Shown: positions 57,824 to 63,716 of the stretch, one piece after another
Position numbering within the stretch: the first letter of the stretch is position 1
How the letters are laid out: every line of letters begins with the position of its first letter
Translations under genes and position numbers: made by a program
DNA from: a bacterium
GTDB lineage: Bacteria > Armatimonadota > Fimbriimonadia > Fimbriimonadales > Fimbriimonadaceae
Direction of reading: 5' to 3'
NCBI GenBank assembly: GCA_013823945.1
Contig: PNMZ01000003.1
Span: 1 to 64,000, forward strand
Length of the DNA: 64,000 bases
Notes under the pieces: generated by a model
What the model was told of the DNA's origin: nothing
What the model saw: only the letters and a program-made list of their open reading frames with translations
Databases searched by the model: none

Positions 57824-58636
57824 ATGAAAAATTCAAGTTGGTTGGTGATTGGTTTGGGGCTGATTTTGGTTGGGTGCGGGCCCAAACCTCCGGTAGAGGT
57901 TCGACCGGACATCGCGGCGGCGTACGACGAGTTTTACGATGTGGGTGGAGGGGACACAGGGGCGGCGAAGATAGCTCTGGCAAAAGCTCGGAAAGCGGAT
58001 GCGGAGAATGCTTATACAGATTATCTGGAAAGTTGGATCGCATTTCGGACAAAGGATTATGCGGGTGGACTGGAACTATTGCGCTCTGGAAATAAGCGGG
58101 AAAAGTGTTTGATTTATGTGACCGAGCCGCCACCAGCGGACAACATTAAGAGTTTGGGGCGGATCCGGCAAGTGGGGTTTGAGACGGACAATTTCAAGGA
58201 CTTTTTGGAGATTGCGGAAGACGTTTTTGTTGAAGTTCGTCATATGGGAAAAAGAGTTGCGAATGCTGAACCAGTGAATAGTTTGTCGGTTTTGAACGGG
58301 ACAGGGGTGATTCGCAAGAGTTACCAGAGCGAGATTGCGTATTGGACTGAAAAGAAGTCCGAGAAGGATGTTCAGCGGGTTCAGACAAAACTGGATGAGT
58401 TTACGAAGTGGTACGACAAGTTCCAGAAGGATTTGGCGGAACACGTGGGTGACTTGATGCGAGAAGCTGGAGAGGCGGCAGGTATGACAGACGAGGAACT
58501 TGCAGACTATGCACAGGGGAAGCCGATCCAGGATCAAGGGAAGATTGCAAAAGCGGATGCGAAACGGATTGAGCTTTATGAGGCTGAGGTTCGCGCGTTG
58601 CGTGAGTCTTTGAAAGGGATGCCAAAACTCGATTGA
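57824..58636 (+). CDS. Lipoprotein of unknown function
   Basis: 270 residues. Signal [18 protein letters not shown] with lipobox LVGC. The remainder is helical and charged, with repeated short segments similar to TPR-like helices ([28 protein letters not shown]). The C-terminal third is rich in Glu and Lys. No family is recognised. Confidence 0.68.
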
Positions 58637-58696
58637 TCAGAAGGCTTAGTCTGTAGAATTCTGTCTAGGTTGTTCGTGTAGAATGGTGGGGTTGGC

Positions 58697-60667
58697 ATGA
58701 GCAACGAGAAGATCATTGTGCGCGGGGCACGCGAGAATAACCTGAAGAATGTCACCATTGAGATTCCGAGGGATAAGCTCGTTGTCATTACCGGCCTGAG
58801 TGGGAGTGGGAAGAGTTCGCTGGCGTTTGATACGATTTACGCGGAGGGGCAGCGGCGGTATGTGGAGAGTTTGAGTGCTTATGCGCGGCAGTTTTTGGGG
58901 CAGATGGATAAGCCGGATGTGGATTCGGTAGAAGGGTTAAGCCCGGCGATTTCCATTGACCAAAAGAGCACGAGTCGGAACCCGCGCTCGACAGTCGGGA
59001 CGGTTACAGAAATTTATGACTATTTGCGGATTCTTTTTGCCCGGATCGGGGTGCCTTATTCTCCGGCGACAGGGAAGCCAATCGAGCGGAGTAGCCCGGA
59101 GATGGTGGTGGACGCCACGATGGGATTGGCGGAAGGAACCAAGGTTCAGGTTCTTTCGCCGATTGTGAGGGGGAGAAAAGGGGTCTACCAAAAGGAGTTG
59201 GAAGACGTGGGGAAAGCGGGGTTTGTGCGAGTGCGAGTGGATGGGGAGATGTATGAGGTCACGGATGATATTCCGATGGATCGGTACAAGCAGCATACGA
59301 TTGAGGTCGTGATTGACCGCTTGGTCGTGAAAGAGGGAATTGAACGGCGGCTGGCGGATTCGGTTGAGACGGCCCTAAAAATGGGGAAAGGGCTGGTGAC
59401 GGTGAGTCACGAAGTAGATGGCGAGTGGGTGGACGTGCTTTTTAGTGAGTTTTATTCTTGCCCGGAGAGTGGCTTCACCATGCCGGAGTTGGAGCCGAGG
59501 ATGTTCTCGTTCAACTCGCCCTTTGGGGCTTGCCCAGAATGTACGGGTCTTGGGACGAAAACAGAATTTGATGCCGATTTGTGTATTCCGGACAAGAGTA
59601 AGCCGGTGCGCGATGGAGCGATTGTTCCGTTTGTTTATAAGTCGGGTGAAGTGAAGGAGTGGTGGCCGCAGGTTTTGGACGGGGTTGGTCGGGCCATGGG
59701 GTTTGATGCGCACAAACCGGTGAGCGAATTGACGGAAGAGCAATATCATGCGGTTTTGCATGGCCTGAAAGAGCCAGTGAATGTGCGGATGCAATACGCG
59801 CGGTCGGAGCGTGAGTTTTCGAGCAAGTGGGATGGGGTTTTGAATGTTCTGCGGAAGAAATATGAGCAGACGGAGAGCGAATGGGTCAAGCAGGATTTGG
59901 CGCAGTACATGAGGACGAATCCCTGCCCAAGTTGCCATGGAAAGCGGCTGAAGCCGGAAAGCCTCTGTGTGAAATTGGCCGGAGTGGATATCAGTACGGT
60001 GACGGAAATGAGTGTGGGGGATGCGTTTGCGTTTTTTGAGGGGCTTTGGGGGCATTTGAACGATCGCCAGAAGGCGATTGGGGAGCGGGCGGTCAAGGAG
60101 ATTCGGGAGCGGCTCGGATTTTTGAACGATGTTGGGTTGTCTTATTTGAATTTGAGTCGGTCGGCGAATACCTTGGCGGGTGGGGAGGCCCAGCGGATTC
60201 GGTTAGCGACACAGATTGGGAGTGGTTTGATGGGGTGCCTTTATGTTTTGGACGAGCCTTCGATTGGGCTCCACCAGCGGGATAACAATAAGCTGATCGA
60301 GACGCTGATTCGACTCCGGGATTTGGGGAATACGGTGATCGTAGTGGAGCACGATGAGGACACGATGAAGGCGGCGGATTGGTTGATTGACATTGGTCCG
60401 GCGGCGGGCGAGCATGGTGGGCGAATTGTGAACGAGGGGCCTTACGAAGAGTTCATCAAGCGGGATTCGCCAACGGCGCGGTATTTGAACGGATTGGAGA
60501 AGATTGAGGTGCCGAAGGTTCGGCGGGAGCCGAGGTCGCGGTGTCCGCTCTTTGGGCCGGAGTCGGGGAATGGCGTGGTCAAGAAATCTCCAGCAAAGCG
60601 GCCGGCGGTTGCGAAAGCTGGGGCAAAGAAGGCTTCGGTGAAGAAGGTGAGGAAGGTGAAGAAGTGA
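58697..60667 (+). CDS. uvrA: UvrA, N-terminal half (ABC module I) of a split gene
   Basis: 656 residues. Walker [10 protein letters not shown] at 33-41, [41 protein letters not shown] zinc region, and the module I ABC signature [12 protein letters not shown] with [15 protein letters not shown]. The first zinc knuckle is degraded: one CxxC has become CPES. It ends after SPTARYLNG and a Lys/Ala-rich tail ([19 protein letters not shown]), exactly where the second ABC module begins in normal UvrA. It recognises DNA damage in nucleotide excision repair. The stop overlaps the next gene's GTG start. Confidence 0.95.
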
Positions 60668-61083
60668 GTGAATTGAATTCGGAATTGGTAAAAGTCGCGC
60701 GGGGGCTCGGGGTAGCGATGCCGGATCAGGAGTTGATCGATGAGGGGATGGGGGATGAGGTTTTGCACGCAGGGATTCGGATTGAATTAGAAGATCGGTT
60801 TTTGGCGACGGGGGCGAATTTGGAGGAGGGAGATGGGGAGCGGTTGGCGATTTTCTATTCGGGTCAGCCGGCGGAGTATGTAGTGGATGAGGTCGCAGTG
60901 ACGGCGGATTGGGAAGGGGACATGGATGGCTTGGTGGCGCGGTTCGAGGGGTTTCGGGGGACGGCCCTTGGGTTAGTGCCGGAGGTTTTGGCGGCGATGG
61001 GCTTGGCGAAGAAGTTTGCAATGATTGGTGAGTTTGATCGTCCGGTGCATTATCAGGTTTGGCTGGGGCCGGAGGCGGAGTAG
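60664..61083 (+). CDS. Unknown protein nested between the uvrA halves
   Basis: 139 residues from GTG 60664, which overlaps the uvrA N-half stop, and three bases before the next gene. Acidic and probably alpha/beta (ELIDEGMGDEVLHAGIRIELEDRF, LVPEVLAAMGLAKKFAMIGEFDRPVHYQVWLG). No family is recognised and no membrane or signal segment is seen. Conservation of its position between uvrA halves in related genomes would indicate a repair role. Confidence 0.72.
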   Translation: MSELNSELVKVARGLGVAMPDQELIDEGMGDEVLHAGIRIELEDRFLATGANLEEGDGERLAIFYSGQPAEYVVDEVAVTADWEGDMDGLVARFEGFRGTALGLVPEVLAAMGLAKKFAMIGEFDRPVHYQVWLGPEAE

Positions 61084-61086
61084 GCG

Positions 61087-61503
61087 ATGGCGAAGAAGAG
61101 TTGGGCGGAGAAGATGCTGAAACCGGCGGAGGTTGAGGTGAAGGTAATGGAGAAAGATATGGGGAGTTGGGGGAAGGCGGGGGATCGGCTTTTGATCCCA
61201 ACGCCGGAGGTGATTCGGGATTACGTTCGGGGGATTCCGGCCGGGGAGGGGCGGTCGGTGGTGGCGATGCGGGCGGATTTGGCGCAGGAGTTTGGGGCGG
61301 AAATGACTTGTCCATTGACGACGGGGATTTTTTTGCGCGTGGTGAGTGAGGCGGCGTTTGAGGAGGTTTCGGCGGGGGCGGGTTTGAGGGATGTGGCTCC
61401 GTTTTGGCGGGTGGTGGAGCCGGGTTCGGCTTTGGGAAAGAAGTTAGCGTGTGGCGGGGATTGGATTCGGGATGTTCGGGTGGGGGAGGGGATTGATGGC
61501 TGA
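61087..61503 (+). CDS. Alkyltransferase-like (ATL / MGMT DNA-binding) protein
   Basis: 138 residues, with the MGMT-type winged helix [53 protein letters not shown]. The acceptor motif PCHRVVxxxGxLG is replaced by [13 protein letters not shown], so the alkyl-accepting Cys is Phe and the His is Trp. This is the pattern of alkyltransferase-like proteins, which bind O6-alkylguanine without repairing it and pass it to excision repair. It lies between the uvrA halves and overlaps the C-half start by 8 bases. Confidence 0.85.
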
Positions 61504-62491
61504 TTGGTTGGTGATCAAGAATGCACGGGGGCATAATTTGCAGGGGGTGGATGTGGCGATTCCGCTCGGCTGCTTCACATGCGTGACAGGGGTGAGCGGG
61601 AGTGGGAAGTCCACGTTGATCCAGGACACGATGTTCCCCCGGATGATGTATGAATTGCACGGGACGCGGGGGGTGTGGGAGCCGCACGACGAGCTGACGG
61701 GGCACGATGAGATTGACAAGGTCATTGACATTGACCAGGGGCCGATTGGGCGGACGCCGAGAAGCAATCCGGCGACCTACACGGGCACGTTTGACATGAT
61801 CCGTGATCTTTTCAGCAAGACGCAGGATGCGAAGATGCGAGGCTATAAGCAAGGGCGGTTTAGTTTTAATGTGAAAGGGGGGCGGTGCGAGACGTGCCGG
61901 GGGGATGGGATTATTAAGATTGAGATGCACTTTTTGCCGGATGTTTATGTGCCGTGTGAAGTGTGCAAGGGGCGGCGGTACAACCGCGAGACTTTGGAAG
62001 TGAAGTACAAGGGTAAGTCCATTGCGGACGTTTTGGAGATGACGATTGAGGAGGCGTGCGAGTTTTTTAAGCCGATTCCGAAGATTTTCCGGAAGCTTGA
62101 GACGTTGCTGCAGGTGGGTCTTGGCTATATTCGGATGGGGCAGGCGGCGACGACGCTTTCGGGAGGGGAAGCTCAGCGGGTGAAGTTGGCGACCGAGCTT
62201 TCGAAGCGGTCAACGGGGAGGACGCTTTACATATTGGATGAGCCGACGACGGGGTTGCATTTTGAGGATGTCCGGCGACTCCTTGCGGTGTTGCATCAAT
62301 TGGTCGATGCGGGGAACACGGTTTTGGTGATTGAGCACAATTTGGATGTGATCAAGACAGCGGATTGGTTGATTGATATGGGTCCGGAAGGGGGCACGGG
62401 TGGGGGGACGGTTGTCGGGATGGGAACGCCGGAGGAGATTGCGAAGATTCCTTCGAGCTATACAGGGCAGTATTTGGCGAAGTTGTTGTAG
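61496..62491 (+). CDS. uvrA: UvrA, C-terminal half (ABC module II) of a split gene
   Basis: 331 residues from ATG 61496, chosen because it overlaps the ATL gene stop and starts at the family's ABC II boundary ([22 protein letters not shown]). Walker [30 protein letters not shown], the intact zinc finger CETC...[24 protein letters not shown], signature [12 protein letters not shown] and Walker [11 protein letters not shown]. All normal ABC II residues are present, so it should assemble with the N-half. Confidence 0.95.
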
Positions 62492-62687
62492 GGATTGAAG
62501 TGCGTCTTTTCGCTTTTTCGGGTGATGTTTGTCAATCCATAGATTTGGGACGGAAGGTTGCAATTTGTAGACAATTGTTTCATGAGACCTTTGACTAGGG
62601 TGTAATTTAGCATCAAATACAGAGAATTTTCACGATTTTTCTCAGATCGCACAATTAGACCAGTTGAGTTGCGTAGATTAGCGCGTT

Positions 62688-63716
62688 ATGGAGCTAGCAG
62701 GAATTCCGATTTGGATTTGGGGATGTTTCCTTGGATTCGTTTTCTTGCTTCTGGCTCTTGACTTGGGGGTTTTCCACAAAGAAGCTCACGAAGTCAAGAT
62801 GAAGGAAGCCTTGACGTGGAGTGCGATTTGGATTGTGATCGCGTTGATTTTCAACGCGGGAATTTTTCTCTTGTGGGACAAAATTCAGCCGGGTAGTCAA
62901 TACACGCCGAATCAGGCAGGACAGGCGTTTCTCGCGGGATATCTGGTTGAGAAGGCCCTGAGCGTAGACAATATCTTTGTCTTCTTGATGGTTTTTGGCT
63001 ACTTCCAAGTTCCGGCGAAGTATCAGCACCGCGTTTTGTTCTGGGGAATTGTCGGAGCGTTGATCTTCCGCGCACTCTTCATCGCGATGGGTGCGGCGAT
63101 TCTAGAGAAGTGGTTCTGGATGATGCTCGTCTTCGGAGCGTTTTTGATCTTCACCGGATTGAAAATGTTGCTGGTTGCGGACAAAAAGCTTGATCCGGAG
63201 AAGAATCCGGCGGTGAAGCTTGTGCGCAAGATTTTCCCGGTAACCAATGACTACGTTGGTCAGAAGTTCTTCACTCGGATTGATGGAAAGCTTTGGGCGA
63301 CACCGTTGTTCGTCGTTTTGATGATGATTGAGTTCACGGACATCATCTTTGCGGTGGATTCCATTCCGGCGATTTTCGCAATTACGGCTGATCCGTTCAT
63401 CGTGTTCACATCGAACGTTTTCGCGATCCTTGGTTTGAGGGCATTGTTCTTTGCGATTGCGGGCTTGGTCAAATTGTTTGCTTACCTGAAATATGGTTTG
63501 TCGGCGATCTTGATTTTCGTCGGTGGCAAGATGATCTATAACTACGCGGAGAAAACTTATGACCTGATTGATGGGGTTACTAAGTTCCCCGTTGGTTTAA
63601 GCTTGGGAATCATTGCGGGAGTGTTGGCGTTGTCCATTTTCGCATCGATGCTCTTCCCGCCGAAGAATAATCCGCACGAAGTTCCGAGCGTTTCTGAAGA
63701 AACTCCGGAAGCTTAA
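62688..63716 (+). CDS. TerC/Alx-family membrane protein
   Basis: 342 residues, about nine membrane spans. TerC motifs EKALSVDNIFVFLMVF and IEFTDIIFAVDSIPA carry the conserved Asp and Glu residues that bind Mn2+ or other cations. The C-terminal tail is soluble. The family exports manganese or protects exoenzymes and tellurite-exposed cells. I looked for a yybP-ykoY manganese riboswitch in the 196-base upstream interval and did not find its conserved core. Confidence 0.92.
   Translation: MELAGIPIWIWGCFLGFVFLLLALDLGVFHKEAHEVKMKEALTWSAIWIVIALIFNAGIFLLWDKIQPGSQYTPNQAGQAFLAGYLVEKALSVDNIFVFLMVFGYFQVPAKYQHRVLFWGIVGALIFRALFIAMGAAILEKWFWMMLVFGAFLIFTGLKMLLVADKKLDPEKNPAVKLVRKIFPVTNDYVGQKFFTRIDGKLWATPLFVVLMMIEFTDIIFAVDSIPAIFAITADPFIVFTSNVFAILGLRALFFAIAGLVKLFAYLKYGLSAILIFVGGKMIYNYAEKTYDLIDGVTKFPVGLSLGIIAGVLALSIFASMLFPPKNNPHEVPSVSEETPEA

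Follow-up and report, generated by a model that had tools for sequence, protein, structure and literature searches.

UvrA, the sensor of nucleotide excision repair, is normally one protein, whose two ATPase sites are taken to communicate within a single chain. In the 64,000-nucleotide stretch of a Fimbriimonadaceae genome analyzed here (NCBI assembly GCA_013823945.1, contig PNMZ01000003.1, positions 1 to 64,000; the window), the equivalent protein is divided between two genes, uvrA-N and uvrA-C, which enclose two small open reading frames (ORFs) on the same strand, in the order uvrA-N, ORF2, ORF3, uvrA-C. The N-half (58697..60667, + strand, 656 aa) comprises the first ATPase module (ABC I), the UvrB-binding domain (PF17760), the DNA-binding insertion domain (PF17755) and a basic C-terminal tail; the C-half (61496..62491, + strand, 331 aa) comprises the second module (ABC II) with its signature II and a four-cysteine zinc module. 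Between them lie ORF2 (60664..61083, + strand), which starts with GTG and encodes 139 aa of no known family, and ORF3 (61087..61503, + strand), which encodes a predicted alkyltransferase-like protein of 138 aa. uvrA-N overlaps ORF2 by 4 bases, ORF2 and ORF3 are 3 bases apart, and ORF3 overlaps uvrA-C by 8 bases.

Is this a genuinely divided gene? A profile search assigns TIGR00630 positions 1–610 to the N-half and 611/612–924 to the C-half, with the N-half alone scoring 836.4 bits against a cut-off of 729.8. The initial annotation, made from the sequence of the window, had given the same coordinates, lengths and overlaps, had placed the break between the two ATPase modules and had argued against a single frameshift error; on each of these points our analysis agrees. 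Misassembly and frameshift were both rejected, given 20 stops in the frame spanning the two halves (the N-half's own stop included) and the retention of the split in many genomes, closed ones among them. An assembly error in the window is very unlikely because the split is conserved in relatives, including closed genomes, and because the four-gene order for which the initial annotation had suggested searching is present in a close relative, Armatimonadetes bacterium Uphvl-Ar1 (CP021423.1), as N-half, ORF2, an extended ORF3 and C-half. In CP021423.1, a frameshift near codon 475 interrupts the N-half, possibly through an error in sequencing. Neither is there a sign of the second, intact uvrA that the initial annotation had considered: profile search of the 3.16-Mb, 99.8%-complete genome found none, and its 29 other matches to the UvrA profile score at most 38 bits and resemble ordinary ABC ATPases.

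We searched 85 genomes of the family Fimbriimonadaceae, 88 genomes of the order that were at least 90% complete, and 205 genomes of the phylum. Among family genomes of at least 90% completeness, the N- and C-parts of uvrA occupy separate frames in 54/70, spanning 24 genera, and the split falls at TIGR00630 position ~609/610, that is, at the ABC I/ABC II junction. A single-frame uvrA is found in the other 16 (G002, G010, G013, G016, G053, G056, G058–G061, G066, G073, G080, G081, G087 and G088), that of G080 being disrupted close to the end of its frame. Three of the 54 split genomes (G007, G015 and G083) have an N-part truncated by the end of a contig. The halves lie less than 2 kb apart in 18 split genomes (in one of these, G012, they are convergent), 2–10 kb apart in nine, more than 20 kb apart on the same contig in nine, and on different contigs in 18; on the closed chromosomes of G089 and G090, more than 1 Mb separates them. 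The claim of a real, retained and functional-looking split UvrA is supported, and the split is conserved across the family. Co-translation of the halves, which the initial annotation had also proposed, is plausible in the window's genus and does not extend to the family, as the halves are separated by more than 2 kb, or placed on different contigs, in 36/54 split genomes. Among the genomes with a joined gene, G056 also encodes a second, divergent full-length UvrA (L070). In two 1.5-Mb genomes, G087 (L084) and G088 (L085), UvrA is unmatched at profile positions ~292–402, which correspond to the DNA-binding insertion domain; the G087 protein is ~68 residues shorter in this region.

The separated halves retain the working parts of the enzyme. 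PF17760 and PF17755 match the window's N-half with 127.7 and 90.5 bits, and Walker A I, signature I, Walker B I, signature II and Walker B II are intact in all 50 pairs with both halves readable (the window's among them; G006, G007, G015 and G083 fall outside this set), as is Walker A II in 49/50, the sequence of G043 being different. Four cysteines occupy the zinc region of the C-half in 91/91 rows read out of 93 with a C-part, among them every one of the 54 split ones. Purifying selection acts on both halves: in the comparison of the window with CP021423.1, the ratio of nonsynonymous to synonymous substitution rates (dN/dS) is 0.022 for uvrA-N and 0.009 for uvrA-C. N-halves stop soon after a conserved RRxP motif and often finish in a tail rich in Lys/Arg, and C-halves mostly start 3–8 residues ahead of the first conserved residue. 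According to the available text of PMC6486640, the ATPase sites of UvrA are crossed combinations: ATP-binding domain I and signature domain II make up the proximal site, ATP-binding domain II and signature domain I the distal one. Because both halves contribute a domain to each known site, the two proteins should form both sites only together, and neither should work alone. In the first zinc module, the window's uvrA-N has CPES where others have CxxC, and of 58 family rows read, 13 have three cysteines in this stretch and one has two.

Beyond the family, UvrA is divided a second time, at a different place. In 10/11 genomes of the related family f2 (G029, G031, G033, G035, G037, G039 and G101–G104; loci L123–L134 and L136–L139), a break near residue 242, directly after the UvrB-binding domain, yields an N-piece and a separate gene for positions ~243–924, leaving Walker A I (with the UvrB-binding domain) and signature I on different chains. 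Both pieces were read in six of these genomes; for G101–G104 the large piece was read and the small one counted as a second profile match. In the closed genome of G029, ~1 Mb lies between the two pieces. Elsewhere in the order, uvrA is joined in one f2 genome (G025), five f5 genomes and one f3 genome (G026), and in the only f4 genome its pieces are spread over two contigs. In the 117 phylum genomes outside the order, uvrA is whole or nearly whole among the matches listed. Eight phylum genomes with weak, absent or multi-piece matches were rechecked: G131 is joined, the matches in G113, G120, G144, G148 and G176 run into contig ends, and G116 and G190 gave no UvrA match on recheck.

How could two genes that often lie far apart be expressed together? 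A 16-bp palindrome, GTAGAATTCTGTCTAG (58653..58668, + strand), which we regard as a putative damage-response operator, precedes uvrA-N in the window, with two mismatches to GTAGAC-N4-GTCTAC. Scored within 60 bases upstream at no more than 3 mismatches of 12, it occurs before 43/52 split N-halves and, outside the window's genus, before 43/46 C-halves (10/10, 9/9, 9/9 and 15/18 by rising distance between the halves; G044, with no counted C-half start, stands outside this count). It also precedes 12/17 joined uvrA genes of the family, that of G020 (89% complete) included. Shuffled sequences match in 1.6–1.8%, and only 4/183 neighboring genes carry the element, three of which read as divergent genes sharing the uvrA intergenic region. 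Among 11 recA upstream regions read (up to 220 bases, without a shuffle control), it occurs with at most 3 mismatches in eight and with at most 2 in five; loci L274, L275, L276, L279 and L281 have a candidate box before recA. Within 170 bases upstream, it is present before 3/7 joined f5 genes and before both pieces of the f2 genome G039, and it was found neither before the f3 gene (G026) nor before the joined f2 gene (G025). In the window, a -10-like TAGAAT read by eye (58679..58684, + strand) follows the palindrome; a sigma-70 consensus scan of 58300–62800 gave no site.

Together, this points to a candidate LexA-type operator, and its presence at both halves and at recA makes co-induction by DNA damage likely. 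The operator may predate the split, in which case the C-half may have gained its own copy on becoming a separate unit. A lexA gene scores above cut-off in 10/10 genomes, and a literature search on LexA in Armatimonadetes brought up nothing judged relevant. Several observations speak against such control. C-halves in the window's genus lack the palindrome (0/7), the window's own included, and no f2 piece read except those of G039 has it within 170 bases. Upstream of lexA (loci L199–L208), the half-site GTAGACA occurs in 9/9 regions read, but the full palindrome with at most 3 mismatches in only 2/9. Genome-wide, the palindrome is not enriched, a backward control pattern being commoner in all five genomes; our claim is limited to upstream regions because of this lack of excess. 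Furthermore, the element was spotted by eye and then scored on the same sequences, which makes the statistics post hoc, and in C-halves its left half coincides partly with the -10 region, so that the match may in part reflect promoter sequence.

What does the divided gene make? We consider it highly probable that these proteins form a two-chain UvrA, which arose by an old fission, whose halves associate and remain co-expressed, and which has been re-fused in some lineages. In or near the family ancestor, the gene would have been cut in the short linker that joins ABC I to ABC II, leaving two genes whose products would associate into one UvrA unit and then form the usual dimer, (N)2(C)2, with repair activity presumably retained. 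The control site that both halves usually share upstream suggests joint production and assembly into a single sensor. Co-expression could be achieved by two routes: by separate promoters with the same damage-type, LexA-like operator and, in the window's genus, by transcription as an operon in which the C-half, overlapping ORF3, has no operator of its own. The control site accompanies halves that form separate units and is missing where both sit in an operon-like cluster with the N-half first. Such a UvrA would share with the single-chain protein (TIGR00630/NF001503) its domains, motifs, C-terminal zinc module and their order, and would differ in being two chains from two genes, the N-half carrying a basic tail and the C-half beginning at a new start with a short leader. 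A parallel is offered by heterodimeric ABC ATPases, whose composite sites lie between subunits, in that two half-ATPases on separate chains would form composite sites; here, however, the two unlike halves would create two unlike sites, and the pair would dimerize again.

The two genes between the halves are a feature of the window's genus. The initial annotation had seen in them two new partners of UvrA; ORF3 sits between the halves in 7/8 genomes of the genus and ORF2 in 3/8, and the idea fails as a general rule. Homologs of ORF3 occur in 42/85 family genomes, sit elsewhere in the genome in other genera, and are also found in records from Bacteroidetes, Betaproteobacteria and Mesorhizobium; ORF2 occurs in 3/85, all in the window's genus. 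General partnership with split UvrA was rejected on this distribution, because of which neither ORF2 nor ORF3 can be needed for split UvrA in general. The structure model of ORF3 (pLDDT 92.6) resembles alkyltransferases (AGTs) and alkyltransferase-like proteins (ATLs), which fill the first 34 rows of the VIA fold comparison, with middling scores: a best Z of 7.9 (below 8), with a root-mean-square deviation of 2.1 over 81 residues, and a best Foldseek E of 0.14. Where AGTs have PCHR, ORF3 has PFWR (matched by eye against PCHR and PWWR rows) and hence no catalytic cysteine; in a 20-row alignment, P105, W107 and R108 are invariant and F106 is present in at least 90%. Pfam and NCBIfam scans assigned no accepted family to ORF2, ORF3 or the 20 alignment rows, although one row matches PF01035 weakly (E 0.071) and the G045 homolog reaches this model with 26 bits, or 27.7 when joined, against a cut-off of 27; sequence searches of the PDB with ORF3 gave nothing or weak SurA matches. 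ORF3 is a candidate ATL. Replacement of PCHR, by PFWR here and by PWWR in short ATL-like proteins of four family genomes, links it to this group; its longer N-terminal part and, in the window, its lack of recognition by PF01035 set it apart. ORF2 is probably a real gene, judging by its dN/dS of 0.083 (0.171 for ORF3) against CP021423.1; its fold model is poor (pLDDT 59.5), and no relatives were found in plasmids, the one outside collection searched. In CP021423.1 (L214:6001-7242), the ORF3 between the uvrA halves is part of a fusion with another ORF3-like and an ORF2-like stretch; in G003, too, there is an additional, short ORF3-like piece at this place.

ATLs bind alkylated DNA and contact or recruit UvrA, according to the available text of PMC7835731. 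The place of ORF3 beside uvrA fits such a contact, which is suggestive by analogy: in the window's genus, the product of the alkyltransferase-like gene in the putative operon may hand alkyl lesions to UvrA. A stronger version, in which the operon of this genus encodes a dedicated four-protein sensor, ORF3 and perhaps also ORF2 being integral subunits that channel alkyl lesions into excision repair, and in which a protein bridge replaces the covalent link of UvrA, strikes us as unlikely.

The history of the split was read from a tree of concatenated N- and C-parts (87 rows; careful search), which supersedes an earlier quick tree; G007, G015, G027 and G083 (contig breaks), G131 and G056b are outside it. 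Within the family, the split/joined label changes at least eight times (8–9 across the central 90% of bootstrap trees), five changes are required even when just the well-supported branches are considered, and a single clade of all split rows is rejected. Re-fusion in some lineages is likely on this tree, because joined genes are nested among split ones. In particular, the joined G002 falls inside the window's otherwise split genus, in which ORF3 already parts the halves of the outermost split member, G001, and holding the genus's split rows together is rejected (approximately unbiased (AU) test, p 0.0014). Some joined genes also resemble split ones in their linkers: the 21-residue linker of G002 ends in STGW, and the C-halves of G085 and G098 start with MSTGW; four joined genes of genus g36 and that of G060 have linkers of 36–45 residues, in most cases rich in Lys, in which they resemble the tails of split N-halves. 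By comparison, the joined genes of f2, f3 and f5 have linkers of 8–15 residues, and G131 has one of 32.

The strongest competitor dispenses with re-fusion and assumes many independent fissions at one permissive linker, a natural cut point; a two-chain UvrA would hold in this case, too. Several other joined family genes indeed have short linkers (8–13 aa) like those of outgroups, and a tree of the C-half alone places four joined genes at the family base, as fits a joined ancestor. Against our main reading, the AU test on the quick tree gave no support for the nesting of G002 (p 0.57), and the probability of a split state is 0.54 at the ancestor of the whole family; only at the following node, which excludes the long-branch genus g44, is it 0.975. 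On the other side of the ledger, 17 fissions would be needed without re-fusion, as compared to nine re-fusions after a single fission, and a two-rate model fits 12.9 log-likelihood units worse with fission only (lnL −44.9 versus −32.0). Together with G002 nesting in a genus where ORF3 already parted the halves, this leaves purely independent fissions improbable.

Might the halves instead have taken up separate jobs, the C-half, for example, as a lone ABC ATPase, with UvrABC repair lost? Distances of more than 20 kb or different contigs in 27/54 split genomes would sit well with this. Yet both ATPase sites described in the available text of PMC6486640 need both halves, the window's N-half keeps its UvrB- and DNA-binding domains, the same upstream element precedes both genes, and there are signs of re-fusion, all of which makes such a division of labor very improbable. 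Decay of a uvrA broken by insertion of ORF2 and ORF3, as the only uvrA found being broken around two unfamiliar small genes might suggest, is scarcely credible given the motifs kept in 50 split pairs, the low dN/dS of both halves, the recurrence of own starts and upstream elements, and a split state shared by 54/70 genomes from 24 genera.

Literature searches for split UvrA, for UvrA gene fission and for uvrA in Armatimonadetes, Fimbriimonadia or Fimbriimonadales turned up no apparent description of this kind in the literature covered, which excludes subscription papers. A natural two-chain UvrA would allow the ABC I and ABC II parts to be expressed, mutated and titrated separately, making the sharing of lesion search, lesion recognition and UvrB loading between the two sites directly testable. 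It also presents a core repair gene undergoing fission and likely re-fusion, and, within one order, UvrA splits at two different places with apparent re-fusion in some lineages. A tandem double UvrA, with two units in one gene, would be another departure from the one-unit plan, in which copies are joined, as compared to one copy being split. It apparently also occurs in the phylum: apparent frames of ~1,760–2,180 aa with UvrA matches exist in G109, G172, G173, G215 and others (f8, f24 and f35–f39), and two UvrA units per apparent frame in the four named genomes make them, from frame lengths alone, possible cases.

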